Positions 2,955-23,538 of a stretch of DNA of 31,651 nt are shown here, piece by piece; positions within the stretch are counted from its first letter, which is position 1, and every line of letters starts with the position of its first letter. Origin of the DNA: a virus; the IMG/VR virus record IMGVR_UViG_3300032236_000467, positions 1 to 31,651 of that record. One strand, given 5' to 3'. The translations under genes and the position numbers were made by a program. The notes under the pieces were generated by a model. That model was given only the letters and a program-made list of their open reading frames with translations. It did no database searches and was not told the DNA's origin.

Positions 2955-2990
2955 GCAAAAAATATTCGCATTTAAAAAATATTTGTCAAT

Positions 2991-3016: not shown

Positions 3017-3022
3017 AGTCAG

Positions 3023-3050: not shown

Positions 3051-3055
3051 AAACT

Positions 3056-3391: not shown

Positions 3392-3427
3392 CGCTCTTTC
3401 CTTTCTTCGATAATGCGATGAGTTAAA

Positions 3428-3454: not shown

Positions 3455-3768
3455 GCGTCTAATTTAGAAATTATCTTCTTTAAGTTTTCATGGTCTTCAC
3501 GAATGTCTGCAAGGATTTCGCAGAGATGTTCGTGATCTTCCTGTGCGCGTTGTTCGGCTTTCTTGTTGCCAACGTCTTGACCGACCATGATCAAAGGCAA
3601 AGCAACCAACTGGATGATCCCGCCGCTGACATAGAACACAAACGTTTCAAGCGATGGAAACACCGACGGCAGCATCGACCAGATAAAAAAGAAATACACG
3701 CACCAGATGCTGCTCATCGCTGCCACAGTACGTAGAGCTATCGACTCGTTAATCTTAGAAAGGTTCAT
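3451..3768 (-). CDS. Small membrane protein with two TM segments and coiled-coil tail
   Basis: 105 residues. Two hydrophobic stretches (about 15-35 and 44-64) are separated by a short loop. A charged helical tail follows (KKAEQRAQEDHEHL..., 70-105), probably cytoplasmic and coiled-coil. GGAGTG precedes the ATG. The next upstream membrane gene (3995-4393) has the same plan of two TM segments plus a charged helical tail, so the two may be distant relatives. Function unknown. Superinfection exclusion or host membrane modification is possible but not shown. Confidence 0.8.
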   Translation of the reverse strand: MNLSKINESIALRTVAAMSSIWCVYFFFIWSMLPSVFPSLETFVFYVSGGIIQLVALPLIMVGQDVGNKKAEQRAQEDHEHLCEILADIREDHENLKKIISKLDA

Positions 3769-3777
3769 GACACACTC

Positions 3778-3993
3778 CTATTTGTCCCAAGACATCTTGG
3801 GTAAAGTTACAGGGACTTTCTTACTGCGGGCGATATTGCCACGGCTGATCTTGGCTGACAAGGAGTTCGGCCCTGCCGTTCCCAATTCATGCTTGGTGCG
3901 GACGTAATCTGCCCATTGCTTTTGGTCCTTTAAGTTCTCGTAGAACTTATCCTGTGACCTCTTGAATCTTTCATGTGCTATAGTGCTACCCAT
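3778..3993 (-). CDS. Hypothetical small basic protein
   Basis: 71 residues, basic and helical, beginning MGSTIAHERFKRSQD, with no TM segment or metal motif. The ATG overlaps the end region of the DUF1003-like gene on its right (stop at 3995) and the stop is 9 bases before the next gene, as expected inside this polycistron. No family recognised. Confidence 0.7.
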   Translation of the reverse strand: MGSTIAHERFKRSQDKFYENLKDQKQWADYVRTKHELGTAGPNSLSAKISRGNIARSKKVPVTLPKMSWDK

Positions 3994-3994
3994 G

Positions 3995-4393
3995 TCACTG
4001 CGCCATAAAACTTCTAATGTCTTCTCTTAACTCGTGCATATGATCATCGATATGCTTTTCCATTCGGATGATCACCTCATGATCCTGTTGGTCAATGATC
4101 AGGTTCTTCATGGCACGACGGCGATCCTGTAACGCCATCCGGTTAGCGGACAACAAAAGGATCGGGCCAGTGAACGCAGCCTGTACCGACAGGATGAGAT
4201 TGAGGAATGTAAAGGGATAGGCGTCGAACTTCCAGATGTTCAAGACGTTCACCAGCACCCACAGGATCAACAAGATCGTCTGTGTCAGGATGAACCGCCA
4301 TGAACCAATGACCGCCGCAAACCTATCCGCTAACCGTTCCCCAAATGTCATGCTATCAATCCAGAAGTGTAAATGTTTTTTCTTCCGGCTCAC
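3995..4393 (-). CDS. DUF1003-like membrane protein
   Basis: 132 residues. The sequence GERLADRFAAVIGSWRF, then TM1 (31-52), FDAYPFTFLNLILSVQA and TM2 (60-82), then LLSANRMALQDRRRA matches the DUF1003 family pattern (DR.A...GSWRF, FDPYPF.LLN..LS..AA, S.NR). The tail (95-132) is a charged helix. The start is GTG at 4393, overlapping the preceding gene by 38 bases; an internal ATG at 4351 is the alternative. DUF1003 proteins are small inner-membrane proteins of unknown role, seen in bacteria and phages. Confidence 0.85.
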   Translation of the reverse strand: MSRKKKHLHFWIDSMTFGERLADRFAAVIGSWRFILTQTILLILWVLVNVLNIWKFDAYPFTFLNLILSVQAAFTGPILLLSANRMALQDRRRAMKNLIIDQQDHEVIIRMEKHIDDHMHELREDIRSFMAQ

Positions 4394-4547
4394 CTTTCAG
4401 TGCGGCCAGTTCTTTCTTCAGGTCTCGTATCTGCTCCCGAAGCCTAGTCTCGTTCTGATATCCCAAATGTTCCCAGATTTCCTTGATGGTCTGCATGACT
4501 TTGACCGCCGCCCAAATCCCCATCATCGTTAAAAGGGTATCGTGCAT
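4356..4547 (-). CDS. Small protein with one hydrophobic helix and coiled coil
   Basis: 63 residues. A moderately hydrophobic N-terminus (MHDTLLTMMGIWAAVKVMQ) is followed by a coiled-coil stretch rich in E, L, R and K (about 32-52). AAAGGAAA precedes the ATG. It overlaps the start of the DUF1003-like gene, suggesting coupled translation and a possible membrane partnership. No family recognised. Confidence 0.65.
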   Translation of the reverse strand: MHDTLLTMMGIWAAVKVMQTIKEIWEHLGYQNETRLREQIRDLKKELAALKGEPEEKTFTLLD

Positions 4548-4548
4548 C

Positions 4549-4776
4549 CTATTTTCCTTTCAAAATACATATCCATTCACGCTCACCTATCCGATATCTT
4601 GGATAGCTCTTCGTGTCACTGTCACGACAGCGACCCATCTCCATTGTCATTGGAACTCGGCCCTCGGACCTTGGTCCTATGTATATCTTCCCGTCCACCC
4701 GATAGCACTCCTCGAACCGCACCCATGGGATGCCGCTCCAGTCCACCGCCAGATAGTCGCATGGCACGTTTTCCAT
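4549..4776 (-). CDS. Hypothetical small protein
   Basis: 75 residues, mixed beta character with several Tyr/Trp and three Cys (C6, C24, C50). The frame fills the gap between its neighbours and its TAG forms part of the Shine-Dalgarno region of the next gene. A weak GCGGGA precedes the ATG. No known family recognised. Confidence 0.65.
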   Translation of the reverse strand: MENVPCDYLAVDWSGIPWVRFEECYRVDGKIYIGPRSEGRVPMTMEMGRCRDSDTKSYPRYRIGEREWICILKGK

Positions 4777-4814
4777 TCCCGCATTGTACCAGACTCTGGC
4801 GATCTGTCAGCAAC

Positions 4815-5039
4815 TTACGCTTGTTCATTGTCCAGCACCTTAATGAGATTTTCAAAGGCTTCTTCTATGGTTTTTCCTTCGGCAATGTAATCGCCTGTGG
4901 CTTCACCCAAATTGACACAGTGGGCGGCGCGGTTGCAAAACTCTACACGCCAATATGGTTCAGGGTATTTTTCATAGAATAGTGCCAAGCTGTCATCGTA
5001 GACTGGATAGGACATTATCTTTTTGATCAGATCATCCAT
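4815..5039 (-). CDS. Hypothetical small protein with HicB-like look
   Basis: 74 residues. The second half (YIAEGKTIEEAFENLIKVLD) resembles the 'G.T..EA..N...' helix of HicB-like partial RNase H folds, but the protein is short and no HicA partner is visible, so no toxin-antitoxin call is made. The start ATG overlaps the stop of the 39-codon membrane gene upstream, indicating translational coupling. Confidence 0.75.
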   Translation of the reverse strand: MDDLIKKIMSYPVYDDSLALFYEKYPEPYWRVEFCNRAAHCVNLGEATGDYIAEGKTIEEAFENLIKVLDNEQA

Positions 5040-5151
5040 GACATCCGAACCCGAAGATCACTTGAGCGACATAGACCACAAGTATAAGGCCAAACCCTAT
5101 ACCCATGACAAAACCCATGCCCAAATAAAAAATATCCTTGAACATCTCCAT
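5032..5151 (-). CDS. 39-residue single-pass membrane protein
   Basis: A short frame from ATG at 5151 to TGA at 5032. It begins MEMFKDIFYLGMG and is almost wholly hydrophobic from residue 7 to 33 with glycine spacing, then ends CHG. GGAAGAG lies 2 bases before the ATG, and its stop overlaps the next start (ATGGATGA). Length, coupling and hydrophobicity support a real small membrane protein of unknown function. Confidence 0.65.
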   Translation of the reverse strand: MEMFKDIFYLGMGFVMGIGFGLILVVYVAQVIFGFGCHG

Positions 5152-5171
5152 TGCTCTTCCATTCCATCCAA

Positions 5172-5399
5172 TCATTTTTTATTTCCTTTCACTTCGTTAA
5201 TCCATCGTCTCACGTCGCCCTTGAAGTTCAGCGTAGATCGACTGTCAGATGGGCTGGCAGATCGTACAAACAAATGCTTGTGTGATCCGATCTGTACAAA
5301 AAACTTCAGATGCTTTCTGGAAATCTCAACCGTGGTTATATCTACTCCGCACTCGGTCAATAGTTCTTTCGTGTCACGAATGTGTTTCTTGATTGCCAT
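5172..5399 (-). CDS. Hypothetical basic small protein
   Basis: 75 residues beginning MAIKKHIRDTKELLTECG, with a beta-hairpin-like middle (KHLKFFVQIGSHKHLFV) and a basic end (DVRRWINEVKGNKK). The fold pattern (helix, strand, strand, helix) resembles small phage nucleic-acid-binding proteins or HicA-like folds, but no catalytic His motif is clear. It overlaps the preceding gene by 26 bases. Confidence 0.7.
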   Translation of the reverse strand: MAIKKHIRDTKELLTECGVDITTVEISRKHLKFFVQIGSHKHLFVRSASPSDSRSTLNFKGDVRRWINEVKGNKK

Positions 5400-5661
5400 C
5401 CTCTTCCTCTTTCAGTACGGCCTTTGGAATTTTCAAATTTGCTATCTGCATCATACGAGCAATTTGATACCCCATGAATGGCCTTAGCGGGGTAAAAATA
5501 CGTTTGCCATCTTGATCAACTAAATTGTTAGCAGCCATAAGAATCCATTCTGCTAATTCTTCAGTGGATTTTGGTTTATAGTGTAACAGCATTTCCATTG
5601 TTTGGTTGCTTTTTGGCTCGCAAATAAATGATTCTTTAAGAAGCCGTTCTGTAGCGTCCAT
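5374..5661 (-). CDS. Hypothetical small phage protein
   Basis: 95 residues from ATG 5661 (MDATERLLKESF...). A longer upstream frame exists but would cover another small gene; GGAGGTG before 5661 and the TGATG overlap with the preceding stop decide this start. The protein is largely helical with an acidic tail (KEEEDGNQETHS). No family recognised. Confidence 0.7.
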   Translation of the reverse strand: MDATERLLKESFICEPKSNQTMEMLLHYKPKSTEELAEWILMAANNLVDQDGKRIFTPLRPFMGYQIARMMQIANLKIPKAVLKEEEDGNQETHS

Positions 5662-5780
5662 CACCACTGCACCTCCCCATCCCGTGACACAAGGACATAC
5701 CACCGATCCCCGTCGTCGTTCTCCCACAATGCTAAGATGTCTTTGCCCACCTCTTCGTGGCGCACGATCCACTTTCTCAT
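5661..5780 (-). CDS. 39-residue hypothetical protein
   Basis: Short frame from ATG 5780 to TGA 5661, beginning MRKWIVRHEEVGKDIL and ending YVLVSRDGEVQW. It reads as a small beta-sheet protein with four Trp. It is placed exactly between two coupled genes: its ATG overlaps the stop of the upstream gene (5777) and its stop overlaps the next ATG. This is strong positional support despite its size. Confidence 0.65.
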   Translation of the reverse strand: MRKWIVRHEEVGKDILALWENDDGDRWYVLVSRDGEVQW

Positions 5781-5998
5781 TTTGACACCGTCCCCCCAAA
5801 CCCAACTGATTTTATTTGAAAAGATGGTTTTGCCATTGATTTCAAAATACTTTCTATATCTTCCTTTAACCGATTATTTTCCCGCTTCAATGGAACAATG
5901 TAGGCTGTGGCATTTTCCAACTGCCGTTCCAGTTCTGCCACGCGCTTGCGTAAGGCGATGATGTGATCAATCGTAATCGGATCAGCGTGTCTATTCAC
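5777..5998 (-). CDS. Small coiled-coil protein (GTG start)
   Basis: 73 residues. GTG at 5998 is chosen because GGAGGT lies 5 bases upstream and the longer frame covers the Cys-rich gene. A long heptad region (IIALRKRVAELERQ... to about residue 50) predicts a coiled coil. Function unknown. Small coiled-coil proteins of this sort are common in phage early regions. Confidence 0.7.
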   Translation of the reverse strand: MNRHADPITIDHIIALRKRVAELERQLENATAYIVPLKRENNRLKEDIESILKSMAKPSFQIKSVGFGGTVSK

Positions 5999-6197
5999 TG
6001 TGTACCTCCGGCTTTCTTTTACGGACTTCCCAATAGTAGTCGCAGATGACAGGACGGTTTGTACCGTCCCGATAATAAGGCTCTTCAATAAACCAAGATT
6101 GGTTGACAGGATCAGGCTCTGTGCCACTGGACGGACACCTGTAGCAAGTATCCGATAACGCACACGTGTCGCCTTTACACATTGTGATGTCAGGCAT
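5991..6197 (-). CDS. Cys-rich small phage protein
   Basis: 68 residues with C7, C12, C18 and C21 near the N-terminus (MCKGDTCALSDTCYRC) and a later CDYYW. This MPD.TMC.G..C.L...CYR layout is a recurrent phage small-protein type of unknown role, probably metal-binding. Its ATG overlaps the stop of the 34-residue gene upstream. Confidence 0.8.
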   Translation of the reverse strand: MPDITMCKGDTCALSDTCYRCPSSGTEPDPVNQSWFIEEPYYRDGTNRPVICDYYWEVRKRKPEVHSE

Positions 6198-6294
6198 TAG
6201 GTTTCTTCTTCCCTGATAAAAATAAGATCACCGACAAAACCCCGATGCCGCCAAGCGACAGCATCAGGATCGAAAGCAAGAACTCAAGGTACAT
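6190..6294 (-). CDS. 34-residue single-pass membrane protein
   Basis: ATG at 6294 to TGA at 6190. MYLEFLLSILMLSLGG and onward forms one TM helix (about 4-27), followed by a basic GKKKPNA tail, so the C-terminus is probably cytoplasmic. The ATG overlaps the stop of the DUF6378-like gene and the stop overlaps the next ATG. Confidence 0.65.
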   Translation of the reverse strand: MYLEFLLSILMLSLGGIGVLSVILFLSGKKKPNA

Positions 6295-6643
6295 TCTTAG
6301 CGTCCTTGGCCGCTTGAGCAATGGCCGTGACATTCGGGAAAGACGCCATGATAGCCAAGTCTTTCTCAACCGTATTCAGACTCGTGGCAGAGGACCTCTG
6401 ACCGAGAGCCGCGTACCCACCGATATCGTCCCAATGATCGCGGAAGTTCGCATCACCACTGAGTAACCGACCAAGCTTGTTGCAGATCATCTCAAGCGAC
6501 TCTTTCTGTCCGTCGTTGATCTTATCCCAATTAGGCGTGTCACGAATGATTTCTTTCAAAGTCTGAGAGAGCTTTGACACGTCAGCATATTTACCGTGTG
6601 TCTTCTCGCGCTGATCTAGGATTTCGTTGATACTGTTAGCCAT
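6284..6643 (-). CDS. DUF6378-like phage protein
   Basis: 119 residues. The sequence NEILDQREKTHGKYADVSK, then IRDTPNWDKINDGQKESLEMICNK, GRLLSGD and HWDDIGGYA matches the pattern I know for DUF6378: a helical phage protein with ERG.THG, W..L...Q.EALDMI..KI.RIL.GD and DHW.DI.GYA. The conserved acidic and His residues suggest a MazG-like or nucleotide-pyrophosphohydrolase-like helical bundle, which is inference only. It overlaps the DnaA-IV-like gene by 8 bases. Confidence 0.82.
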   Translation of the reverse strand: MANSINEILDQREKTHGKYADVSKLSQTLKEIIRDTPNWDKINDGQKESLEMICNKLGRLLSGDANFRDHWDDIGGYAALGQRSSATSLNTVEKDLAIMASFPNVTAIAQAAKDAKNVP

Positions 6644-7076
6644 TTGCTTTCAACCTCTGTGAATGTTTGTAGACTGAGTTCAAGATAGTAGTGTGGTCTT
6701 TGTTAAAGTAAATCCCCATTTCGATGTAGGACATACCGACCTCATTGCGTACCCGATACATAATCTCATGACGGGCCGCAACAATATGTTTCTTACGTGA
6801 CCCCGAAAAGATTTGGTTCTTGGTTAATCCGTGGACTTCTCCCACTTCATCGATAATCTTGTTCACCGCCTGACGCTTCTTGTTCACCGGACCTTTGCGG
6901 TATTGTTCAAGGAGATGTTCGGGGATTGTTGATAGCTTTCTTTTCGGTGGCTCAGGCTCCGGTGGTTTTGGAGGCTGTGGCCGTGTCACGTAGTTGATGT
7001 ACCTCGGTCCTTGGAACTTGCGCTTGAGTGCAGCGTAGTGGTTCTTGAGTTCCGTGGCATCAGTGAATTGAAGCAT
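6636..7076 (-). CDS. DnaA domain IV-like DNA-binding protein
   Basis: 146 residues from ATG 7076 (GAAAGAGAAAAG upstream). Residues about 70-140 match the DnaA C-terminal helix-turn-helix: an initial helix, IVAARHEIMYRVRNEVG (the R.IAMYL.RE helix), YIEMGIYF, then DHTTILNSVYK (127-137) with the diagnostic DHTT signature. The N-terminal half is a basic/proline linker (PQPPKPPEPEPPKRK). There is no AAA+ domain, so it cannot act as an ATP-driven initiator by itself. It may bind DnaA-box-like sites in the phage or interfere with host initiation. Confidence 0.85.
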   Translation of the reverse strand: MLQFTDATELKNHYAALKRKFQGPRYINYVTRPQPPKPPEPEPPKRKLSTIPEHLLEQYRKGPVNKKRQAVNKIIDEVGEVHGLTKNQIFSGSRKKHIVAARHEIMYRVRNEVGMSYIEMGIYFNKDHTTILNSVYKHSQRLKANG

Positions 7077-7512
7077 TTTTCTTTTCTCTTTCCAACATTT
7101 CAAGGTGTTCCTTGAATAGTTCAGTGATCTCAACTGTCTTATCGAACGCAATCGCTTGCACCGATTTAAACAGGTCCCTCGCATCGTCTTCTGTATCCGT
7201 GGACAGAAGGCATCCCGTCGCCGCCTTGCTCAACATCACAGAGATCAAGACGGAGTTCATCCGCCCAACCTCCAAGCCACTGGCTTCCGCTGAATGGAAC
7301 AACTGAACAAGAAGCATGTTCATGATCATATCCGTGGCATTGCCTAGGATATTCATCTTCTGCTCTTGGTCCATTGTGTCCATCAACCTTTTCGTCATGT
7401 CACGGTGAACAATCGCGGTTTTGATTAGGGCTGACGCTGTCATGGGATGCACACCTGCTTTCACTAAATGCGATCCTATGACCTTGGATAGTTCCTCGTC
7501 GCTCTGTGTCAT
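7060..7512 (-). CDS. Hypothetical helical protein
   Basis: 150 residues from ATG 7512, which overlaps the upstream stop (TCATGA). The protein is Met-rich and helical (RDMTKRLMDTMDQEQKMN, AEASGLEVGRMNSVLIS). The 100-residue protein at 9971-10273 has a similar look (GLTEGLCKMVVIKVVETL..., FSLKLGLMATTG), so they may be distantly related. No named family. Confidence 0.75.
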   Translation of the reverse strand: MTQSDEELSKVIGSHLVKAGVHPMTASALIKTAIVHRDMTKRLMDTMDQEQKMNILGNATDMIMNMLLVQLFHSAEASGLEVGRMNSVLISVMLSKAATGCLLSTDTEDDARDLFKSVQAIAFDKTVEITELFKEHLEMLEREKKNASIH

Positions 7513-7727
7513 GACCGTACCATCCCGCAATAGCCGTGAGTTGTGCTGTAGCCCACAGAGTTTTTGTGAACAACAACCCCGTTTGACGTCACTGTGCTAA
7601 AACGTTCCTCCCACCGCCAAGCCATGCACTTGGGGCCTTCACACCAAATGCTCATTTGGTTTGGTTTAAGGGGGCATATTTTTTCTTTAGCCTCTTCAGG
7701 CGTCACGTAGTGTAGATCATTTGTCAT
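7509..7727 (-). CDS. Cys/Trp-rich small phage protein
   Basis: 72 residues from ATG 7727 (GTG at 7736 is the alternative). It contains VTPEEAKEKICPL, CEGPKCMAWRWEE and GYCGMV. This 'VTPEEA..K.CP....C....CMAWRW...GYCG' layout is a recognisable recurrent phage small-protein type, probably metal-binding. It overlaps the next gene by 4 bases. Confidence 0.8.
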   Translation of the reverse strand: MTNDLHYVTPEEAKEKICPLKPNQMSIWCEGPKCMAWRWEERFSTVTSNGVVVHKNSVGYSTTHGYCGMVRS

Positions 7728-7736
7728 CGGGCGCAC

Positions 7737-8042
7737 TCACGCAAGCCGCCAGATACCGAGCGTCTCTTCATCAAGCTTGCGCGTGGTGATCTTAACGTCG
7801 GGGTTCTTCTTGCGGAAAGCGCCGATCCGTCCTGACACGTTGCCATCGGGGCCATCGTATTTGATCTTGATCATCTCACCAATCTTCAAAGCCAAGATGG
7901 CGAGCGTCAACTTACCTTGCATCGAGCGCGGATCAATCGGACGCGGCCTTGCGTTAGCCCTGACCTTCGGCAACTCCATGACACGTGGCTTTGAAATCTT
8001 TGTGATCACTGCGACTGGCTTTCTCGTTTCAGTGTTTAGCAT
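7737..8042 (-). CDS. Small basic protein, W-x-KxG family member C
   Basis: 101 residues. After a basic N-terminus (RANARPRPIDPR), the second half reads LALKIGEMIKIK, IGAFRKKNPDVKI and EETLGIWRLA. This fits the frequent small phage protein plan 'lk.G....v....r...kknp.....r.......WR.'. Two tandem genes at 10414-10949 follow the same plan, so the three are probably diverged paralogues. A role in binding nucleic acid is inferred from charge. Confidence 0.75.
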   Translation of the reverse strand: MLNTETRKPVAVITKISKPRVMELPKVRANARPRPIDPRSMQGKLTLAILALKIGEMIKIKYDGPDGNVSGRIGAFRKKNPDVKITTRKLDEETLGIWRLA

Positions 8043-8316
8043 TTTTATAGTTTCCTTCTACTGCCATGGTAAATAGTTTGGTTATATCTTCTTGGCTCAT
8101 TTCCAAGTGCATCGCCAGAATGGTTGCGAGTGTCACCAAGGAACTCAACGCCGTGCCATAAGACTGCAAGACGTTTCTGTCTGGCATATTCGCTTCGACG
8201 AATACGTCGACCTGTTGCTTCAACAACATGATGCACTCGGTCTGTTGTTGTGCTTCTTCTGGGTAAAGTATCTTTGCTGTACTCATGTCAGACTTAATGA
8301 TTGTCGTTCGTGTCAT
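8029..8316 (-). CDS. Hypothetical small protein
   Basis: 95 residues from ATG 8316, chosen over an upstream Met because GAGAGGAAAG sits 4 bases before it and it overlaps the stop of the upstream gene. Mostly helical with a hydrophobic helix (SSLVTLATILAMHLEM). No family recognised. Confidence 0.7.
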   Translation of the reverse strand: MTRTTIIKSDMSTAKILYPEEAQQQTECIMLLKQQVDVFVEANMPDRNVLQSYGTALSSLVTLATILAMHLEMSQEDITKLFTMAVEGNYKNAKH

Positions 8317-8831
8317 TTGCTTTCCTCTCTCATAATTGAATACCAATCGGGATCACCTTTTTCGATGAAGTTCCGAATAGCCTTCGCGGCTTGTTTGTTT
8401 GTCACGTCGTTATAGTTTAGTGTTTCCCAAAAATCTTCTTCCTCAGTACTATTTGCTTCTTCTGCATAATCTTGGAAGGGTGGAAAGAACAATGCTTCGA
8501 GACCGTGGTCTTGTCCTTCGATACCGTGAACGAATTCATCCGCTCTGGTTATCGCGTTCTCGTCATATGTCAGCGAGTCCTTTTCATCTTTAGGCTTCTC
8601 GTTGTTAAGAAGCCAACACCAACCGCCGATACATGCCACGGTGCCACACTTGTATTCCTCACCTTTACCAAGGTAGTCGGCTGTGACCTGCATGTTAAAG
8701 TTCTTGAACTGTAGATTTCCATTGTTTTCTGGTAACCGATAGTTATTCAAGTGGATAAGTTCTTCTACCTCGAGCATCTCTGCCACGACCTTCAACTGTT
8801 CTTTGATCTTGTTGCGATCTAGTTCTGTCAT
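8313..8831 (-). CDS. Hypothetical phage protein with CGTVACIGGW motif
   Basis: 172 residues, acidic. The segment FKNFNMQ...CGTVACIGGWCWLL is a recurring motif in uncharacterised phage proteins (N-terminal helix, 'F.M......CGT.ACI.GW', then an acidic region). Function unknown. GGAGAAAG precedes the ATG, and its 3' end overlaps the next gene. Confidence 0.78.
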   Translation of the reverse strand: MTELDRNKIKEQLKVVAEMLEVEELIHLNNYRLPENNGNLQFKNFNMQVTADYLGKGEEYKCGTVACIGGWCWLLNNEKPKDEKDSLTYDENAITRADEFVHGIEGQDHGLEALFFPPFQDYAEEANSTEEEDFWETLNYNDVTNKQAAKAIRNFIEKGDPDWYSIMREESK

Positions 8832-9037
8832 TTGCTTTCTCCTTGTTCTCTGGCTTTGTGTAATTCCATCTCAACCAAACTTGTTGGGCTGTCGCAATCC
8901 TCGCACACCGCCCCCTTATCAAACGTTGCTTGCACTTTCCATTCTTGATCGAACGCATCCCAATAAGCGAAAGCATCTTTCAAAACGTTCGCCCCTTGGC
9001 AAGCTTTGCATACATATGTCACTGGCTGTGTCATCAC
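8828..9037 (-). CDS. Small zinc-ribbon protein
   Basis: 69 residues with CKAC (10-13) and CEDC (45-48), a classic CxxC...CxxC zinc ribbon. A Trp/Phe-rich strand lies between (YWDAFDQEWKVQATFD). GGAGCGAG precedes tandem ATGs at 9037 and 9034. Similar 'VCKACQG..V..DA.A.WD...Q.W....F......C..C' proteins are common in phages. Probably a small DNA- or protein-binding factor. Confidence 0.8.
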   Translation of the reverse strand: MMTQPVTYVCKACQGANVLKDAFAYWDAFDQEWKVQATFDKGAVCEDCDSPTSLVEMELHKAREQGESK

Positions 9038-9046
9038 TCGCTCCTA

Positions 9047-9292
9047 TCAATCGTCGTCGTCTGTGTCGGGACTGTTCATCCGACCTACAATGCTTTTAAA
9101 AGCGCCAAACTCTCGTATAGCATATTGGAAAGCAACGGCTTCCGGTGGGGTGAACTCTATACGGTTGGTTCCTTGCGTTACTACCATCACCATTGGCACC
9201 CCTTGGATATATTGGATCTTCGTGTCAATGGAATTGCCCGCCTCGCATTCACGCTTGAGTGTGAAGCTTGTTTCAAACTTTGTGTTATTCAT
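9047..9292 (-). CDS. Hypothetical small protein with acidic end
   Basis: 81 residues, beta-rich first part (TSFTLKRECEAGN, VPMVMVVTQGTNRIEFTP) and a terminal DTDDDD. Its ATG overlaps the upstream gene's end. No family recognised. Confidence 0.7.
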   Translation of the reverse strand: MNNTKFETSFTLKRECEAGNSIDTKIQYIQGVPMVMVVTQGTNRIEFTPPEAVAFQYAIREFGAFKSIVGRMNSPDTDDDD

Positions 9293-9545
9293 TGGTTACA
9301 AAACCTTTGTTGTACTGTTCCGTTTGAAAGTCATTAGCAAAGCCTCGTGTGTCAACGATGCCGTGCAACTTTTCATCTGTCCCAGTTACGCGCCATTCGT
9401 GATGGTTGCCCGCTCGTCTTGCCCAAGCCTTTGTCATGGCTTCCTCCGCCGTCATGGCGACGACAGGGATCAAAGCGGTCTCCGTTTTTGTGCGGCTGAT
9501 CTTTACGATGTAGGTGATTGGTCTTTTTAAAATGTCATCGGTCAT
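9285..9545 (-). CDS. Hypothetical small protein
   Basis: 86 residues beginning MTDDILKRPITYIVKISRT, with AMTAEEAMTKAWAR in the middle. This gives a strand-helix-strand arrangement like small phage beta-alpha proteins whose 'A.s.eeA...A' helix follows a strand. Coupled to both neighbours by 4-8 base overlaps. Confidence 0.7.
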   Translation of the reverse strand: MTDDILKRPITYIVKISRTKTETALIPVVAMTAEEAMTKAWARRAGNHHEWRVTGTDEKLHGIVDTRGFANDFQTEQYNKGFVTNE

Positions 9546-9688
9546 TGGTTCTGTTCCTTTATGATTTCAAAAGCGGCTTTCATGGCAGGGCTGTTGTTTA
9601 CTGAACTCGGATAGTATTCAGCCATCCATGTGTATAGGTTTTGTAAAGCTATGAGTAATGCTTCTACTGTTATCTTTTCCTGTGTCAT
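9542..9688 (-). CDS. 48-residue hypothetical helical protein
   Basis: ATG 9688 to TGA 9542, beginning MTQEKITVEALLIALQ and ending AFEIIKEQNQ. The ATG overlaps the stop of the upstream gene and the stop overlaps the next ATG, which supports translation. Predicted all-helical; no family recognised. Confidence 0.65.
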   Translation of the reverse strand: MTQEKITVEALLIALQNLYTWMAEYYPSSVNNSPAMKAAFEIIKEQNQ

Positions 9689-9936
9689 TGGTCCTCGGTC
9701 CTTTGTTCAAGAGCATCTGAGATATCGTCAGCCAAACGCAAGAATAATTCTGCGGCCTGTCGCAAAGACTGCTCGTTAAATATCCACCCGCAATGATTTG
9801 TTTCTTCCCACTGCACGTCAGCCTCCGTCGAAACGCGATAGCAGACATTGCTTTCTTTCTTGTAATACAGGCAAGCAAAGTCCGGTGTGATTAACCGTTC
9901 ATAGCCGTTTCTATTTGTTTCGATATTCAGTTGCAT
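9685..9936 (-). CDS. Hypothetical small protein
   Basis: 83 residues, beta-rich first half with several Tyr/Cys (FACLYYKKESNVCYRV) and a helical second half (RQAAELFLRLADDISDAL). GGAGAAATG is visible at the start. It is the second gene after the leftward promoter at 10321-10347. Confidence 0.7.
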   Translation of the reverse strand: MQLNIETNRNGYERLITPDFACLYYKKESNVCYRVSTEADVQWEETNHCGWIFNEQSLRQAAELFLRLADDISDALEQRTEDQ

Positions 9937-9960
9937 GACATTTCTCCGTCACTTGGGGGT

Positions 9961-9984
9961 AGGCTCAGAATTAATTCTGAGCCT
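9961..9984. repeat. Perfect 24-bp palindrome, terminator-like on the plus strand
   Basis: AGGCTCAGAATT is followed directly by its reverse complement, and on the plus strand a T run (9984-9988) comes next. The palindrome contains the stop codon of the leftward gene 9971-10273. On the leftward transcript it would be a stem without a U tail, just before the next Shine-Dalgarno site. It may block antisense transcription, stabilise RNA or be an operator. Confidence 0.65.
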
Positions 9985-10273
9985 TTTTCCGATCTTCAAA
10001 TATCCGTTGCACGTCTTCGTCATGCTGAACAAGGTGATCCACCATCTGGTCAATCATCCCACGGAAGTCGTCCACGCCAGTCGTTGCCATCAAGCCAAGC
10101 TTTAGACTAAAGTCTAACACGGCAAATACCACCGTCCGCATGATGTCTGCTTCTGGGTATTTGTCCTTCAAGGTTTCGACAACCTTGATCACAACCATCT
10201 TGCAAAGACCTTCGGTCAAACCAAACGTCTCAGCCATCATATCGCTGTCTGGGGATTGGGTCTCAGTGTTCAT
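9971..10273 (-). CDS. Hypothetical helical protein, first gene of the main leftward operon
   Basis: 100 residues, helical, with an acidic/basic end (VQHDEDVQRIFEDRKKAQN). GAAGAAAGGAAGAAAG precedes the ATG, and the promoter with the shared core lies 48 bases upstream. The Met-rich middle resembles the protein at 7060-7512. Function unknown; being promoter-proximal it is probably made early and strongly. Confidence 0.75.
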   Translation of the reverse strand: MNTETQSPDSDMMAETFGLTEGLCKMVVIKVVETLKDKYPEADIMRTVVFAVLDFSLKLGLMATTGVDDFRGMIDQMVDHLVQHDEDVQRIFEDRKKAQN

Positions 10274-10320
10274 CGCTTTCTTCCTTTCTTCGAATCAGCG
10301 TTCTTGCTGATGGCTTCAAA

Positions 10321-10347
10321 GTTATAAGTGCCAATTAAAACTGTCAA
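10321..10347 (-). promoter_or_regulatory. Leftward promoter with shared operator-like core (copy 2)
   Basis: Minus strand TTGACA (10342-10347), 15 bases, TATAAC (10321-10326). The intervening CAGTTTTAATTGGC differs by one base from copy 1 at 3428-3454 and copy 3 at 11412-11425. It drives the main leftward operon starting at 10273. Confidence 0.78.
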
Positions 10348-10358
10348 TAGGGTTTTTA

Positions 10359-10400
10359 AAATAAATTTAAAGCGGCTCAACTTTTTCTGTTGGCCGCTTT
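10359..10400 (-). terminator. Leftward terminator after the two upstream paralogues
   Basis: AAAGCGGC/GCCGCTTT and CAAC/GTTG arms (10369-10381 and 10389-10400) form a 12-bp stem with a one-base bulge and a 7-base loop. On the minus strand a T-rich tract follows. It separates the 10414-10949 genes from the next promoter. Confidence 0.65.
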
Positions 10401-10413
10401 AAGTGGTTGATAT

Positions 10414-10683
10414 TCAAGGTAAATATAGTCCGCGCTTGGCTAGTTTGGTTCGCAACCCGTGGTCGGGGTCATGTTTGGCTAACCAAAATTTTGATGTCCC
10501 GTCACTGTTCTTTACTTGCCGTAAATCCAAATCTCTTAAATTTTTATAGGTAAAGATGTTGGATTTGTTTCTTTTGAAAGCGTTTTTGATTGCGTCGACC
10601 TCGACCTTCGTTCGCGCCTCCAAGCTGTCACCCGCCTTGAGTTCATCCCATGGAATGGACTGGTCTGATTTGAACAAGGTCAT
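10414..10683 (-). CDS. Small basic protein, W-x-KxG family member A
   Basis: 89 residues. It reads IPWDELKAGDSLEA..., then a basic middle (FKRNKSN), then SDGTSKFWLAKH. Its neighbour at 10680-10949 has the same length and the same landmarks (RWHEVKVGKTL, KNP, EDGTVRLW). The pair therefore looks like a tandem duplication. Role unknown; nucleic-acid binding is plausible from charge. The two genes overlap by 4 bases. Confidence 0.75.
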   Translation of the reverse strand: MTLFKSDQSIPWDELKAGDSLEARTKVEVDAIKNAFKRNKSNIFTYKNLRDLDLRQVKNSDGTSKFWLAKHDPDHGLRTKLAKRGLYLP

Positions 10684-10949
10684 TGGTCCTCTGACCTTTC
10701 TTTAGGGATAAACCAAAGACGGACCGTTCCGTCCTCTAACTTATGCTGAAGAATGGCTATGTCAGCGACATGGCTGTCAGGGTTCTTCTGGACGTAGTGC
10801 TTCAGGGAACTCCTGAAGACCTTGGCCCTGAAGGGACTGGCTACAAGAAGTGTCTTACCAACCTTGACCTCATGCCACCGGATTAACCGCCTACGGCTAG
10901 GAGGAAGGATCGTGTCGGGAGATATGTCTTCAAGAGTTTCAAGGGTCAT
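10680..10949 (-). CDS. Small basic protein, W-x-KxG family member B
   Basis: 89 residues, paralogue-like to the gene at 10414-10683 and to the C-terminal half of the protein at 7737-8042. Landmarks: RWHEVKVGKTLLVASP, HYVQKNPDSH, LEDGTVRLWF. It is the first gene after the promoter at 10980-11008 and ends transcriptionally at the terminator near 10380. Function unknown. Confidence 0.75.
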   Translation of the reverse strand: MTLETLEDISPDTILPPSRRRLIRWHEVKVGKTLLVASPFRAKVFRSSLKHYVQKNPDSHVADIAILQHKLEDGTVRLWFIPKERSEDQ

Positions 10950-12515: not shown

Positions 12516-12799
12516 TGGATTTAATCTTTTTGAAGTCTACCTCCCAGTTCTCCAAGTGGGTTCTGGCCGAGCGCGATAAGCATAAGCTGTCACAACGGCG
12601 ACTCCTGAAACTGGCGGGCTTGTCACATGCCACGATGACAAAGGTAGGAATAAACACCGATCTTCGTTTGTCGACTGTGGCACATATTGCACACGTGTTC
12701 GGGTATCGCTTGGCGCTTGTTCCGGTCCCGCTTGATGACACGGAACAAAAAAAGCCCGCCGATCATGGCGGGCTTGATGACACGGTGGGGAAAGATTAG
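12515..12799 (+). CDS. XRE-family helix-turn-helix regulator
   Basis: 94 residues from the ATG at 12515, which shares a base with the preceding TGA. It has an HTH of the Cro/C1 type: FSKWVLAERDKHKLSQRRLLKLAGLSHATMTKVGIN, then LRLSTVAHIAHVFGYRLALV. The last 25 residues are charged and are encoded over the minus-strand terminator at 12747-12775. It is a candidate repressor for the shared promoter core, by position only. Its TAG overlaps the stop of the convergent gene by 4 bases. Confidence 0.85.
   Translation: MDLIFLKSTSQFSKWVLAERDKHKLSQRRLLKLAGLSHATMTKVGINTDLRLSTVAHIAHVFGYRLALVPVPLDDTEQKKPADHGGLDDTVGKD
12747..12775 (-). terminator. Terminator of the AAA+/VWA-like cassette, inside the XRE gene
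   Basis: On the minus strand AAGCCCGCC pairs with GGCGGGCTT (9 bp, 6-base loop) and is followed by seven T. The plus-strand gene reads straight through it as its C-terminal codons. It ends the leftward cassette transcript. Confidence 0.9.
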
Positions 12800-13014
12800 C
12801 GCGGCGGCGCGTTCGCTGCTAGTACGTCGAGCAATTCGGACACGGTTCGGGCGTGGTATAAATCCCCGCCCGCCATCACGCCGCGCCACAAGTGACGGTC
12901 ACGGCGGGACCGTTCGATCCAAGCGAACGCCGCGCCGTTGCGTAGGATCACCATTGCGTCTTTACCATCGGGACGCACGTCAAGGCCAAGCGCGGCGGCG
13001 TCATGCGGCGTCAT
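12796..13014 (-). CDS. Hypothetical small protein, third gene of the GC-rich cassette
   Basis: 72 residues from ATG 13014, preceded by GGGGTGG; an upstream ATG at 13029 is the alternative. It overlaps the VWA-like gene by 14 bases, suggesting coupled translation. The sequence has a beta-sheet look (DAMVILRNGAAFAWIERS, DRHLWRGVMAGG) and no metal motif. No family recognised. Being in the same operon, it may be the small partner of the ATPase system. Confidence 0.7.
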   Translation of the reverse strand: MTPHDAAALGLDVRPDGKDAMVILRNGAAFAWIERSRRDRHLWRGVMAGGDLYHARTVSELLDVLAANAPPR

Positions 13015-13882
13015 GATCCACCCCGCCATATTGTTTCAACATCCGTTCGAACCATTGTTCCGGTTCGCTCACGAGTTCATCGGCCATATGCGGCGCGGCG
13101 ATTGTCAGCATGTCGCCTGATCCGATCACACGGGAAAGCACGTGCCGCATGTTCTCACGGGACCAGTTCGCGTTGTTATAAGGCCACCAGAGGTTTTCGC
13201 CGCCCGTGCCGCCCATGTCACCTAGCATGGCATAGAACAGGCCACGGGACACGGCGGGACATGTCATCACGTGAGCCGCCCGCGCAAGATCAAGCGGCGC
13301 CGTATCGAGACGCGCCCAAATATGCCACGCGCCACCTTCGCTTGAACGTTCGCCGATTGTGGCGCTTGCGCCTATCCAGAGTTCGACAGGGCGCGTTGCG
13401 GACAACGCACGAACGAGCGCAAGGATTAACGCGCCGCGCTTTTGTAAAAGCTTCGCGTCGATACCTTGCGACGATACTAAGTCGACGGCGACTGCAAGCG
13501 GCGCGGTTTCCGTTGCTACCCGTTCACGCCGCCGCATGGTCAAAGGGGTTCCGGCGATGAACGCCGGAACGTTCGGGACGCCGCCCGTGACATCGTCACG
13601 AACGCGCCACGCGCCACGCATGGGCGCAAGAGCTTCGAACCGTGTCAGATAGGCATCGGACGCCGCAACGCCGCGCAAGTCGCCGTTGCGTGTCATGTCA
13701 AGCGCGGCATCATAGGACACGCCGCCGGACCATTTATTGCCCGCCGTTGTCGACTTGCGTGTTCCGTTTGTTTCCGGCACGGCGGCGGCGGCATCGGCGA
13801 ACGATACCAAGTCGCCTATCATAAAATAGTCTTTACCCTTTTTCGGGCATCCGTCGATTGTCGGAAGGGTTATTTTTTGCAT
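13001..13882 (-). CDS. VWA-like partner of the AAA+ ATPase (DUF7192-like)
   Basis: 293 residues from ATG 13882, with AAGGA upstream. The N-terminal part (FADAAAAVPETNG, then WSGGVSYDAALDM) resembles a phage family I believe is called DUF7192. The centre PLAVAVDLVSSQG (128-140) followed by helix and strand VELWIGAS recalls the first strand and MIDAS loop of a von Willebrand A domain, but DxSxS is not intact. Partner pairs of a MoxR/CobS-type ATPase with a VWA protein are known. Here the pairing is inferred from order, 31-base spacing and this fold-like segment. Confidence 0.7.
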   Translation of the reverse strand: MQKITLPTIDGCPKKGKDYFMIGDLVSFADAAAAVPETNGTRKSTTAGNKWSGGVSYDAALDMTRNGDLRGVAASDAYLTRFEALAPMRGAWRVRDDVTGGVPNVPAFIAGTPLTMRRRERVATETAPLAVAVDLVSSQGIDAKLLQKRGALILALVRALSATRPVELWIGASATIGERSSEGGAWHIWARLDTAPLDLARAAHVMTCPAVSRGLFYAMLGDMGGTGGENLWWPYNNANWSRENMRHVLSRVIGSGDMLTIAAPHMADELVSEPEQWFERMLKQYGGVDHDAA

Positions 13883-13913
13883 GGCCTGATCCTTTCTTGA
13901 TCCGTTGTTCCGT

Positions 13914-15266
13914 TTAAACGTTGCGACCTTCGACAAGCTTTTTTTGTTCCGCCGATAGGTTCGCAAGGTAGGTCAGCGCCGCCGCTTCGTCGTGCGTCAT
14001 GCCGCCCGCGATAAGCGCCGCGCCCGCCATGGTCGCACGTGGATCGATCAGCACCTTGAGGCCCGCCGCCCGCGCCCGCTCACGTGCCGCCTGTACGCGC
14101 CGCGCAAAGTCGGCGTTGCCTGAGATTGCGACTTCCAAGGCGGCGTCATAGTCCCATGCAAGGCGAACCGGAAACCGTGACAAGAAAGCGGCGTCGATTT
14201 TTGAGCGCCCTACGTAGTCCGCCGTAGCGCCTAACCCCCACGTGTTCGCCGTTGCCACGATGTGACAGTCCGCATGGCGCTCGACTTGCGTGTCTGGAAA
14301 GCTTGCCCGCCCGTTCGCAAGCGCGGCATTTAATGCGAGCAAAGCGGCATTGTCTGATCCGTCGACTTCGTCGAATAGGTACACGCCGCCGAATTCGAAC
14401 GCATCACGAAACGGCGTTCTATGGTATGATCCGGCGGCATCGATGAACCCTAGCAATTCGTGAGGCATCGACAACGCGCCGTTGTAATGAAACGACAAGT
14501 CAGCGGCGGCGGCGAACGATTTTGCGGCGTGCGTCTTACCTGATCCGGCGGGGCCTGCAATCCAAACGTTCGGCGCGAACCCGTCGACTTGACGCGCCGC
14601 AAGAGCGCGGCAAAGCGTTGCGAACATCGGGTGAGCGTGTCCCGTGGTTTCACCTACCGTTGCGCCGTTGCGAGCAATCTCGATTTTTACCGTCGAAACG
14701 TTCTCTAAACGGCGTTCGACTTCACGCATGACTTGCGCCGTGACTTGTCCCGCAATATGCGGAGCGACAAGCGCCGCAAGCGCCGCGCCCGCCGGATCGG
14801 CGGCGGCGTTCGCCGTGACAGTGACGGGCGGGACCGTGTCGACTTGCGCCGTTGTCGACGTTGTCCCGTCGAATTCAGCTTCGATGATGACACGTTCAAT
14901 CGCTGCATATTGTGCATCCGTTGCCATGCCGCCGCCGTGCGTGTTAATGCTTCGAAAAATACTGTCAACCCGCGAAGCCTTGTCGACATGTAATCGACTT
15001 TCGACGGCTTTGAAACGGTCCCGCAAAGCATTAACGGCGGCGGCGTCTTTTGTGCGTTCTTTTTTCATGGTTTCACCTTCGTTTGATGAATTCACAATCG
15101 TTTCGGCGTCAATCTTAAGCGCATGACACGCCGCCAAATAATCCTCTTTTTGATAGTCCGCGATCCCCTTACCCGTTGCCCGCTTATAGTCCGCCCATCC
15201 GGCGTGTGACGTGATAGCAGAGCGGAGGCGGGACCGTGCAGCGGCATCGATTTTTAGGTTAGACAT
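13914..15266 (-). CDS. CobS/MoxR-like AAA+ ATPase
   Basis: 450 residues. Walker A GPAGSGKT (238-245), Walker B YLFDEVD (296-302), sensor 1 ATAN (338-341), an arginine-finger region FLSRF (361-365) and a sensor-2-like DPRA (409-412). The N-terminus (HAGWADYKRATGKGIADYQKEDYLAACHAL) resembles the CobS N-terminal region. A linker (60-200) carries a long helix. The enzyme should remodel a partner using ATP, most likely the next gene's product. Real cobalt chelation is unlikely, since no cobalamin genes are visible. AGAAAGGG precedes the ATG. Confidence 0.87.
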   Translation of the reverse strand: MSNLKIDAAARSRLRSAITSHAGWADYKRATGKGIADYQKEDYLAACHALKIDAETIVNSSNEGETMKKERTKDAAAVNALRDRFKAVESRLHVDKASRVDSIFRSINTHGGGMATDAQYAAIERVIIEAEFDGTTSTTAQVDTVPPVTVTANAAADPAGAALAALVAPHIAGQVTAQVMREVERRLENVSTVKIEIARNGATVGETTGHAHPMFATLCRALAARQVDGFAPNVWIAGPAGSGKTHAAKSFAAAADLSFHYNGALSMPHELLGFIDAAGSYHRTPFRDAFEFGGVYLFDEVDGSDNAALLALNAALANGRASFPDTQVERHADCHIVATANTWGLGATADYVGRSKIDAAFLSRFPVRLAWDYDAALEVAISGNADFARRVQAARERARAAGLKVLIDPRATMAGAALIAGGMTHDEAAALTYLANLSAEQKKLVEGRNV

Positions 15267-15330
15267 TTGAAACCCTTTCTATGGTTTACGTTGCGTCATG
15301 TTGTGCCGCCCGTTCTTCGGCGGCGAAAAA

Positions 15331-15360
15331 TCAATAGAACGATTTGCCCGCCCGTGTCAA
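15331..15360 (-). promoter_or_regulatory. Leftward promoter of the GC-rich cassette
   Basis: Minus strand TTGACA (15355-15360), an 18-base spacer and TATTGA (15331-15336), about 65 bases before the ATPase ATG. It gives the cassette its own transcription unit, closed by the terminator at 12747-12775. Confidence 0.6.
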
Positions 15361-15791
15361 CTATAATTGCCACGCCGCTTTCCGTTCGCCTATTTTTAAA
15401 GAACGCCGCCCGCCGTGACATATACAGGGCCGGAAACAAGCCAAGGCCCGCCCGCCGTGATCCCCTATAAATCTCCCATGCCACGCCGCCCGCCGCCCGT
15501 GACACGATGCCGCATGTCATAGGACCGTGCCACGCCACCCGTGACACGCTGAACCCGTTTCGAGTTCATCGGCCCGTGACAGTGACACCAGCGTGTCACC
15601 TTACCTAACGGATGCCCATGCGTCATGTCATTAGGTATGACATCCTAGGTCCTAGGTATAAGGTCCTAGGTCCGCCGTGCCACAGGTCGGGTCCCTTTGG
15701 CCGTTTTCGGGGTGCCTATGACATCGTGACACGGACCTCGGTCCCCCCTTTTTCGGGGGCTCTCCGCAGGATTCCACTTTAGACCCTGTTT
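15361..15791. promoter_or_regulatory. Divergent intergenic region rich in repeats
   Basis: No supported gene. It contains many GTGACA/TGTCAC words (for example near 15415, 15498, 15541, 15572-15600 and 15727) and two related GC-rich blocks ending CCCGTGACACG (about 15480-15550). It also has an ACCTAA...TTAGGT dyad (15603-15636), the hairpin at 15627-15641 and the heptamer array at 15643-15673. A CCCCC/GGGGG hairpin with a T loop follows near 15743-15760. It sits where leftward and rightward transcription diverge, so an origin or major control region is plausible. Confidence 0.5.
15627..15673. repeat. Hairpin plus TCCTAGG heptamer array
   Basis: GTCAT-TAGGT-ATGAC (15627-15641) is followed by four abutting 7-base units: TCCTAGG, TCCTAGG, TATAAGG, TCCTAGG (15643-15670), then TCC. 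Three CCTAGG palindromes fall at 15644, 15651 and 15665. Confidence 0.85.
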
Positions 15792-21453: not shown

Positions 21454-23538
21454 ATGTCTGATGAAGGTGATAGTGTCCGTGCTGGCGATACTGCCGGATT
21501 TGGCACGGGAGGCGGTGGTGGTTACGGAACAACTTCTAGTGGCGACCCCGCTGGGGGTGGTGCTAGTGACACCAGAGGTAGCAGGGGTGGTGGAACCCCG
21601 TCACAAACATTAAATGCTGTATCCCCTGCAACAGAAGTAGCTCCTGTATCAACCCCTACAAATAATAGCTACCTGCCAATCAACCCATCAAACCCCGGCC
21701 TGTTACCGGGGGGTGATATAACAAGTTATAGCCCTGCAAATGTCCCATACTTTGCATCGATTGGCGTTCCGACGATTGTGTTGGGAGCAAGTGCTAAAGC
21801 TCCTTCGTCCCTTAGCTTTGCTGGAACTACCCCATCTGCATACAACCTTAACCCAAATCCGACCGGATATATTCCCGGTTATACCGATATGGGCTTGGGT
21901 ACAGGCATCCCTTCTATTGTAACGAAGAACGCTACCTATGGCGTGGGGGCATTGACCCCTACCGTTACGAACGTTCCTTTGATGTCTTCTGGAACATTCT
22001 CCGGCCCTAAAGGCGCGTTGCCTATGACGAACCAAGAACGGTTCGCAGGGTACACTGCTGCGGGTGCAGGTGGTTCTGATTTTTCTGATCTAGAAAAGGC
22101 AGGTAATTTACCTAGTGGGACGATGGGCAAGATCATGGGTGTTGAAAGCACCTATGGCACGAACCCTAAAGCTTTTAATCTAACCAGCGGCCCGTCTGGT
22201 ATTTTCCAGATGTCCAAGGACATAGGTGAGAAGTACGGCATCGTCGGACCGGGTTACGACCTCCGTAATGACCCTGTAGCAGCGCCACAGGCTGCGGCGG
22301 CGTATGCAGCGGACATTGCCAAGCAATTGGCAGGGAATATCGGTCGTCAGCCAACGGCAGGTGAAGTAGGTCTGGGCTACAACCAAGGCGCGGCGGGTGC
22401 GGCTGCATTGCTTAATAACCCCAATGCTTCCGCAGCAGAGGCTTTAGCTCCGGCGTATAAAGGTAGTATTGATGCGGCTGCACGGGCTATTCGGAACAAT
22501 GGCGGAGATCCAAACGCTCCGGCCAGCCAGTTCACGGACAAGATAACCCAAGCCTATCAAAATACTCCGGCCAGCTCTCCTACTTTAGTAGCAAGCCTCC
22601 AGAACCTTGCAACGGGTGTTGGCTCGGCAGTCAGTAACCTTGCTTCGGCAGCGGCGTCTGCTCCGGGTAACTTTGCCAACACGCTTCAGTCGATCTTGGA
22701 TAGCGGCAAGACAACGGCTGCTCCTAATCTTGAAGCAGGAAACTTGGCTGATCGCCCTGCGGCAGGCGCTGTACCAGCATCGTTTGCTAGTGAAGAGCGT
22801 GGCTTTGCAGTACCGGGAGGAGAGACCATCCCAGCCAATACGGTTGGTGGCGCACCCGGCGGTAATCCTAATGCTGCGGATATTACTCCTAGCGGTGAGA
22901 TCGATTGGTCCAAGGGCAACCTTCCGTACATAGATAACACTAAGGCTAAAGAGGATCTGTATAGTCAGCCAAATCCTTTCTTCCCCGGGCAAGACGTAGC
23001 TAATTCCGTGTCAGGTGACACGCCGGAAACCTACGCTCAGAAGTTTACAAATGGTGACGTGTCTCAAGTTCAGTCCCGGATATCCTATGTCAACGGGGTT
23101 CCGCAGGTTGAATTCTTCTCCAAGGGTTTGGATCAGGTAGCTGGAGAGATGGTCAGCGGGATCATGTCCGTTCCCGGCGCTCTTGTTAATGCAGCAGGGA
23201 ATATCTTTAATCCGACGCCTTCGGACACGGCAAAGGCTGCTCAAAAATCTCCTGAAACTTTCTCAGATTGGCTTTCTGGTTTGTTGGGTAATCAAACGCA
23301 ACCAACACCTAGCTCCACTGTTTCTGCAAGCCGTGGCAATCAACCTAACTTTGGTGGCTCATTGCCTGTGGCACAAGCTCCTGCCACCGTGGCAGCAGCA
23401 GATACTATCCCTGTGACACAAAATAATGTAAATACTACAGGGATGAATCTTGCTCGTCGGCCTTATGTGGGAAATCCCACCGTAGCTACTAGCAGTGTCG
23501 CCTATCCTAACTACCAGCCTTCAAGCCGATTCACATAA
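21454..23538 (+). CDS. Virion protein with lytic transglycosylase domain
   Basis: 694 residues. The N-terminal 200 residues are Gly/Ser/Pro-rich and low complexity. Residues about 205-330 form an SLT-like domain: catalytic-type E231 in GVESTYGTNP, GIFQMSKD (249-256) and GYNQGAAGAAALL (308-320). The remainder is Ala/Gly-rich and probably structural. Position between portal and scaffold suggests an internal or ejected protein that cuts peptidoglycan during DNA entry. The low-complexity arms are unusual for a soluble lysozyme and support a virion role. Confidence 0.85.
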   Translation: MSDEGDSVRAGDTAGFGTGGGGGYGTTSSGDPAGGGASDTRGSRGGGTPSQTLNAVSPATEVAPVSTPTNNSYLPINPSNPGLLPGGDITSYSPANVPYFASIGVPTIVLGASAKAPSSLSFAGTTPSAYNLNPNPTGYIPGYTDMGLGTGIPSIVTKNATYGVGALTPTVTNVPLMSSGTFSGPKGALPMTNQERFAGYTAAGAGGSDFSDLEKAGNLPSGTMGKIMGVESTYGTNPKAFNLTSGPSGIFQMSKDIGEKYGIVGPGYDLRNDPVAAPQAAAAYAADIAKQLAGNIGRQPTAGEVGLGYNQGAAGAAALLNNPNASAAEALAPAYKGSIDAAARAIRNNGGDPNAPASQFTDKITQAYQNTPASSPTLVASLQNLATGVGSAVSNLASAAASAPGNFANTLQSILDSGKTTAAPNLEAGNLADRPAAGAVPASFASEERGFAVPGGETIPANTVGGAPGGNPNAADITPSGEIDWSKGNLPYIDNTKAKEDLYSQPNPFFPGQDVANSVSGDTPETYAQKFTNGDVSQVQSRISYVNGVPQVEFFSKGLDQVAGEMVSGIMSVPGALVNAAGNIFNPTPSDTAKAAQKSPETFSDWLSGLLGNQTQPTPSSTVSASRGNQPNFGGSLPVAQAPATVAAADTIPVTQNNVNTTGMNLARRPYVGNPTVATSSVAYPNYQPSSRFT

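Follow-up and report, generated by a model that had tools for sequence, protein, structure and literature searches.

Positions 1 to 31,651 of IMG/VR virus record IMGVR_UViG_3300032236_000467 represent a contig of a tailed phage, 31,651 bases long (hereafter the window, meaning the whole stretch of DNA that was analyzed), with a DNA polymerase gene at its left and genes for the small terminase, large terminase, portal and major capsid proteins following rightward. Between a helix-turn-helix (HTH) gene and the large-terminase region sit three leftward-read genes on the minus strand. A preliminary description, made from the sequence alone, had presented these as a self-contained cassette encoding an ATPase of the AAA+ type (ATPases associated with diverse cellular activities), a protein with a degenerate von Willebrand factor A (VWA)-like core and a small coupled protein. 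We find that the ATPase gene and that of its partner, a member of the family DUF7192, are genetically inseparable and form an effectively obligate pair in this branch of ATPases. The genes and the elements within them are located as follows:

13914 to 15266, minus strand: CobS/MoxR-type AAA+ ATPase of 450 residues (PHROG 249, Pfam AAA_5), from profile matches and motifs
14529 to 14555, minus strand: Walker A motif GPAGSGKTH of the ATPase, residues 238-246, read from the sequence
14361 to 14381, minus strand: Walker B motif YLFDEVD of the ATPase, residues 296-302, read from the sequence
13001 to 13882, minus strand: partner of 293 residues (DUF7192, PHROG 1909) with a predicted VWA-like fold, from profile matches and a structural model
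13520 to 13594, minus strand: conserved loop DVxGGxPNVPAFxAGxPxxMRRRER of the partner, residues 97-121, preceding strand 1; candidate "finger" into the ATPase pore, judged from conservation, a low predicted local distance difference test (pLDDT) score and comparison of its position with NorD
13469 to 13498, minus strand: strand 1 of the partner with the degenerate metal ion-dependent adhesion site (MIDAS) motif LAVAVDLVSS, residues 129-138, from alignment and model
13274 to 13306, minus strand: loop DTAPLDLARAA of the partner, residues 193-203, at the position of the VWA loop-2 threonine, from alignment
12796 to 13014, minus strand: protein of 72 residues, overlapping the stop codon of the partner and conserved in the nearest relatives only

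All three open reading frames (ORFs) are present on the minus strand as originally described, and comparison with a syntenic relative (L008, contig G001) gives nonsynonymous divergence (pN) of 0.19-0.22 and synonymous divergence (pS) of 0.77-0.85 for every one of them. Because pN is low relative to pS, the ATPase, its partner and the 72-residue polypeptide are under selection as proteins. Thirty-one nucleotides separate the ATPase stop codon from the start of the partner, and the gene for the 72-residue protein overlaps the 3′ end of the partner gene by 14 nt. A longer partner initiating at a TTG codon at 13966 is possible, but it is the ATG start that agrees with the relatives.

The ATPase carries the full set of AAA+ motifs that had been attributed to it, comprising Walker A (GPAGSGKTH), Walker B (VYLFDEVD), sensor 1 (ANTWG), an arginine finger (FLSRF) and sensor 2 (DPR), with key residues that are invariant or nearly so among 31 relatives. 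Profile searches place it in PHROG 249 (E 1.9e-47) and in Pfam AAA_5 (32.6 bits, cut-off 22). The family profile identifies Midasin (8e-21), CobS (4e-10) and NorQ (5e-5) in the Protein Data Bank (PDB), and direct comparison with cyanophage CobS yields a value of 2.6e-15; similarity to RavA is weak (3.7e-5). On the strength of these profile matches and of homology to CobS, Midasin and NorQ, the protein is assigned to the CobS/MoxR-like AAA_5 group. Judging from its sequence, it has an intact site for ATP hydrolysis and is homologous to phage CobS.

A search of viral contigs with a profile of the partner returned 42 loci, and the corresponding search with the ATPase profile returned 484 confirmed loci, the best 80 of which were kept and examined; the two sets of loci overlap, many contigs having been found by both searches. 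The ATPase gene lies immediately upstream of the partner gene, on the same strand, in all 42 partner loci. Reciprocally, the partner is located downstream in 79 of the 80 examined ATPase loci (78 at once, one on closer inspection), and the contig bearing the remaining locus ends 114 bases past the ATPase. At locus L114 the partner is present in another frame. The median gap between the two genes is 1 nt. The co-occurrence of ATPase and partner, on which the preliminary description depended, is thus upheld.

The distribution of the pair is broad. Among staphylococcal phages, 236 records contain the ATPase and 236 contain the partner, and the pair is likewise present in phiM5, P106B and X2_24 (two small genes in between), in kayviruses, in Listeria phages, in mycobacteriophages of cluster L, in Gordonia, Acinetobacter and Tunturiibacter phages and, by weak match, in crAss-like phages. 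The same gene order is seen in mycobacterial, Gordonia, Listeria, Acinetobacter, Rhizobium and crAss phages. In the cluster L mycobacteriophages a single ATPase is accompanied by two paralogues of DUF7192, approximately 3 kb apart (L004, 3313-4197 and 7378-8256; L059, 3604-4431 and 7294-8154). Among cellular genomes, 81 pattern matches to the partner in 84,980 genomes included none that could be confirmed, with a pattern that reaches fairly close relatives only. In cyanophages, by contrast, the partner of the CobS-like ATPase is CobT, a protein of about 700 residues that bears an intact MIDAS, is encoded ahead of cobS and has no sequence similarity to DUF7192; related ATPases therefore use two different types of partner. 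In phage genomes the ATPase is usually annotated as "porphyrin biosynthesis" and the partner as "hypothetical", and none of the papers in the collection that was searched mentions DUF7192.

The partner, which contains APLAVAVDLVSSQG, matches Pfam family DUF7192 (PF23822) with 48.1 bits against a gathering score of 27 (E 1.3e-12); both this family and PHROG 1909 are without assigned function. A model of the partner generated by AlphaFold2 from an alignment of 37 phage homologues has a mean pLDDT of 86 and a predicted template modeling score (pTM) of 0.83. The top match to this model by VIA-align is the VWA domain of NorD in the NorQ-NorD complex (Z 7.1, root-mean-square deviation 6.1, 205 residues), followed by Rea1-MIDAS (Z 6.9) and then almost exclusively by VWA domains. 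We favor a VWA-like fold because this list is so uniform, given that a Z score of about 7 would by itself prove little. When the model was compared with the BFVD database, DUF7192 proteins were retrieved first, followed by phage CobT/VWF-A proteins with E values of 2-7e-4. Structure prediction and fold searching thus did not refute the proposed VWA relationship. The model predicts that DUF7192 is a small domain of VWA-like type, extended at its N-terminus and eroded at its MIDAS site.

The preliminary description was well judged in calling the core degenerate. In the form DLVSS, this core terminates predicted strand 1, where many other DUF7192 members have DxTxS, and it is followed by a loop whose T-x-P-L motif stands where the VWA loop-2 threonine belongs. 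In the window partner, the MIDAS residues D134, S138 and T194 are present, and position 136 is occupied by valine rather than serine. The third MIDAS aspartate, with its TDG strand, was not found in the partner, which hence lacks a complete DxSxS-T-D MIDAS; the VWA assignment relies on predicted structure with modest scores. Across the family, the aspartate at 134 occurs in 33 of 51 members, threonine or serine at 136 in 28, the serine at 138 in 43 and the threonine at 194 in 37.

The segment GxxPNVPAFxAGxPxxM before strand 1 ranks with the best-conserved regions of the partner. The loop that contains it averages 2.37 bits of information content, as compared with 1.47 bits for the N-terminus, and is still recognizable in DUF7192 members without the MIDAS aspartate. 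In the NorQ/NorD system, residues 403-448 of NorD form a "finger" that reaches into the pore of NorQ, a single strand joins this finger to the MIDAS face, and the MIDAS mutations T534V and D562N abolish target activation without disturbing the binding of NorQ (PMC13036017, PMC9976466). Going by the published residue numbering alone, the NorD finger should precede strand 1, which is where the conserved loop of DUF7192 resides. We propose that this loop may take the role of the NorD finger.

Several features are shared with characterized systems. As with the phage pair, whose partner is predicted to be VWA-like, NorQ/NorD of Paracoccus denitrificans combines a MoxR ATPase with a VWA protein encoded by an adjoining gene (9qh6, PMC13036017). 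NorD possesses a full DxSxS-T-D MIDAS, a large N-terminal domain and a linker, whereas DUF7192 proteins are of about 290 residues with an eroded MIDAS; and for the phage pair neither a nitric oxide reductase nor a metal target is known. RavA/ViaA of Escherichia coli also unites a MoxR ATPase with a VWA partner, although ViaA has the canonical motif DTSGSM and accessory domains that differ from those of DUF7192. Among virus-encoded systems, p618/p892 of Acidianus two-tailed virus (ATV) and the MoxR-vWA pairs of jumbo phages likewise consist of a MoxR-type ATPase and a VWA partner. Their VWA proteins are larger, those of jumbo phages have an N-terminal peptidase domain, and the ATV pair is linked to tail development.

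Taken together, we consider it likely that the ATPase and DUF7192 constitute a two-component AAA+/VWA remodeling machine carried by this tailed phage, in which the partner acts as a reduced and probably metal-free adaptor. The ATPase would assemble into a hexameric ring, and one DUF7192 protein would sit on this ring, inserting its conserved loop GxxPNVPAFxAGxPxxM into the central pore and contacting the ring through its C-terminus, in the manner of NorD on NorQ. Turning of DUF7192, driven by ATP, would then distort a target protein held by the N-terminal region of DUF7192 or, in the lineage of the window, by the 72-residue protein.

A number of results weigh against this reading. The finger role is argued only from position; VIA-align Z scores of about 7 are reached by unrelated models too; and a Foldseek search of the PDB with the partner model gave nothing below E 0.001, the best match being the Rea1 MIDAS domain at E 0.047. 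Comparison by hhalign revealed no significant sequence relation between the partner and either cyanophage CobT or E. coli ViaA, and none of the NCBIfam models (the CobS and GvpN equivalogs, among others) matches the window ATPase. No analysis points to a target protein, and, on the timing of expression, the main texts of papers on kayviruses and P100-like phages do not name the genes of the pair. Because sequence comparison shows no relation to CobT or ViaA, the VWA assignment is a claim about predicted structure; the non-significant alignment with ViaA coincides exactly with the strand 1 motif. A search of the PDB by hmmsearch with the partner also gave nothing significant. This want of significant sequence or Foldseek-PDB matches, and Z scores within the range of unrelated models, would be expected if DUF7192 had some other alpha/beta fold and simply stood beside a CobS-like ATPase; McrB-McrC shows that plugging of the pore in this geometry is open to a partner outside the VWA group as well. 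We regard this as quite unlikely, since the VIA-align matches are almost exclusively VWA domains headed by the MoxR partner NorD, phage CobT/VWF-A models follow in BFVD, and the DxTxS and TxPL motifs fall at the correct strand ends.

With respect to function, a role in cobalamin synthesis has been proposed for viral cobST clusters (PMC8651126), and host transcripts of the porphyrin/cobalamin pathway rose when a P100-like Listeria phage infected the cells (PMC12282133). Homology of the ATPase to cyanophage CobS and to the solved CobS structure, together with the "porphyrin biosynthesis" label, would be consistent with a phage CobST that feeds a host CobN-type cobaltochelatase and raises cobalamin. 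The phage pair also has in common with CobS-CobT a two-gene neighborhood and, for the predicted partner fold, a resemblance to phage CobT models. However, a search of 44 phage records found CobN in none and ribonucleotide reductase in two (many of these records are fragmentary, and CobN could be supplied by the host), the partner has an eroded MIDAS and no similarity to CobT in sequence, and the pair occurs in the 236 staphylococcal phage records. Staphylococcal hosts are not known to synthesize cobalamin. The cobaltochelatase reading thus draws no support from the searches for CobN and ribonucleotide reductase or from the CobT comparisons; we judge it very improbable, and "porphyrin biosynthesis" is probably the wrong label for this ATPase branch.

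Two other proposals concern the client of the machine. The pair might fold or remodel a tail or head protein, for which there is precedent in ATV, where p618 binds p892 and p892 stimulates the ATPase activity of p618 (PMC4124505, PMC7824862); a MoxR-vWA pair has also been proposed for jumbo phages. In the window and in two Rhizobium phages the pair does have packaging and structural genes as neighbors, but its transcription there runs counter to that of the structural genes. In mycobacteriophages and phiM5 it is found close to one end of the genome and apart from the structural block, and the phiM5 annotation, which marks particle proteins, leaves both ATPase and partner unmarked. A virion-assembly client is therefore unlikely. 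Alternatively, the pair might disassemble a target of host defense or takeover, a role that the preliminary description had left open. It resides in non-structural regions rich in small genes in several phages, and the window cassette shares its strand with a region of small ORFs. Moreover, the proteins of the cassette (12796-15266) are 72-73% identical to those of the syntenic copy on G001 (L068), as compared with 95-100% for the adjoining HTH and PHROG 2165 genes and 97% for the large terminase. The gene at 21454-23538 is more strongly diverged still (55% identity), and the divergence of the cassette is therefore not specific. That the pair is conserved in phages of widely differing hosts points rather to a target that is itself broadly conserved, and a PADLOC search, which gave only a weak, P-loop-sized match of the ATPase to mad8 (E 0.029), neither supports nor excludes a defense or counter-defense role. 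We consider an anti-host remodeler of this kind doubtful.

For the two-component remodeling machine that we prefer, a host or replication protein acted on during the non-structural phase is tentatively favored as the client over a virion-assembly protein, at a little short of even chances, because CobN is missing from the 44 records searched and because the pair is transcribed against the structural genes or, elsewhere, lies away from them. A more far-reaching possibility, and a rather doubtful one, is that DUF7192 represents a MoxR co-chaperone of a new class. It would be a VWA domain that dispenses with metal adhesion and retains only the pore loop and ring contact; hundreds of phages with unrelated hosts would carry it as part of a compact motor directed at one conserved host target (takeover or counter-defense), and lineage-specific third proteins would set specificity.

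AAA+/VWA pairs in viruses are already known; the present analysis adds that DUF7192, on the evidence of its predicted structure, is probably a reduced, MIDAS-eroded VWA-like partner of the PHROG 249 ATPase. A MoxR/VWA-type reading provides a class of function for the unannotated families Pfam DUF7192 and PHROG 1909, argues against counting the pair as an auxiliary metabolic gene for vitamin B12 and directs attention to the interface between ATPase and partner. Hundreds of phage genomes are concerned, including the 236 staphylococcal records. If the MIDAS is dispensable in DUF7192, coupling of VWA partners to the motor would be separable from metal-dependent target binding, a question left by the work on NorQD.

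The 72-residue protein is real, as the preliminary description had supposed, with conserved homologues in at least eight other contigs. It is restricted to close relatives of the window, and other phages have different small genes in its slot; hence the three-gene cassette holds for these relatives, and elsewhere the unit consists of two genes. In L010 (5883-6176) and L013 (6035-6316), the slot after the partner is filled by other, mutually similar proteins of about 95 residues (of the type PLF..GxxxATxGxxAM...LLTPDEY). A model of the 72-residue protein shows five strands between two helices (pLDDT 88). No match stands out in a fold search with this model (best Z about 6), and BFVD returns uncharacterized phage proteins only; likewise, the protein has no family matches, and neither the phage collection nor a single-sequence search of viral contigs yielded a relative.

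The promoter and terminator credited to the cassette fared differently:

12752 to 12775, minus strand: intrinsic terminator with a 9-bp GC-rich stem and a T-run, inside the 3′ end of the HTH coding sequence on the opposite strand
15331 to 15360, minus strand: possible promoter, identified by eye, with -35 TTGACA (15360-15355), an 18-nt spacer and a weak -10 TATTGA (15336-15331)

The terminator is a good one. The -35 element is perfect and the -10 element is poor, such that the site falls below the threshold of a scan for sigma-70-type promoters, which found none on the minus strand and one match on the other strand, where 1.5 are expected by chance. TTGACA also occurs upstream of the ATPase gene in several relatives.

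Upstream of the cassette, positions 15340-15550 contain GC-rich CCGCCCGTGACA-like repeats, three of which have an exact 42-nt spacing (15406, 15448 and 15490), and the TTGACA of the candidate promoter overlaps one copy; these repeats are possibly binding sites for a regulator. At the other end of the cassette, the HTH gene and the gene for the 72-residue protein overlap convergently (12799/12796). The run of small ORFs on the minus strand, mostly unannotated, spans 2373-10949 and includes a homing-endonuclease-like gene at 2373-3032. Finally, a tandem 21-nt repeat, TAGGTATGACATCCTAGGTCC, is present at 15632-15673 in two copies that are 86% identical.

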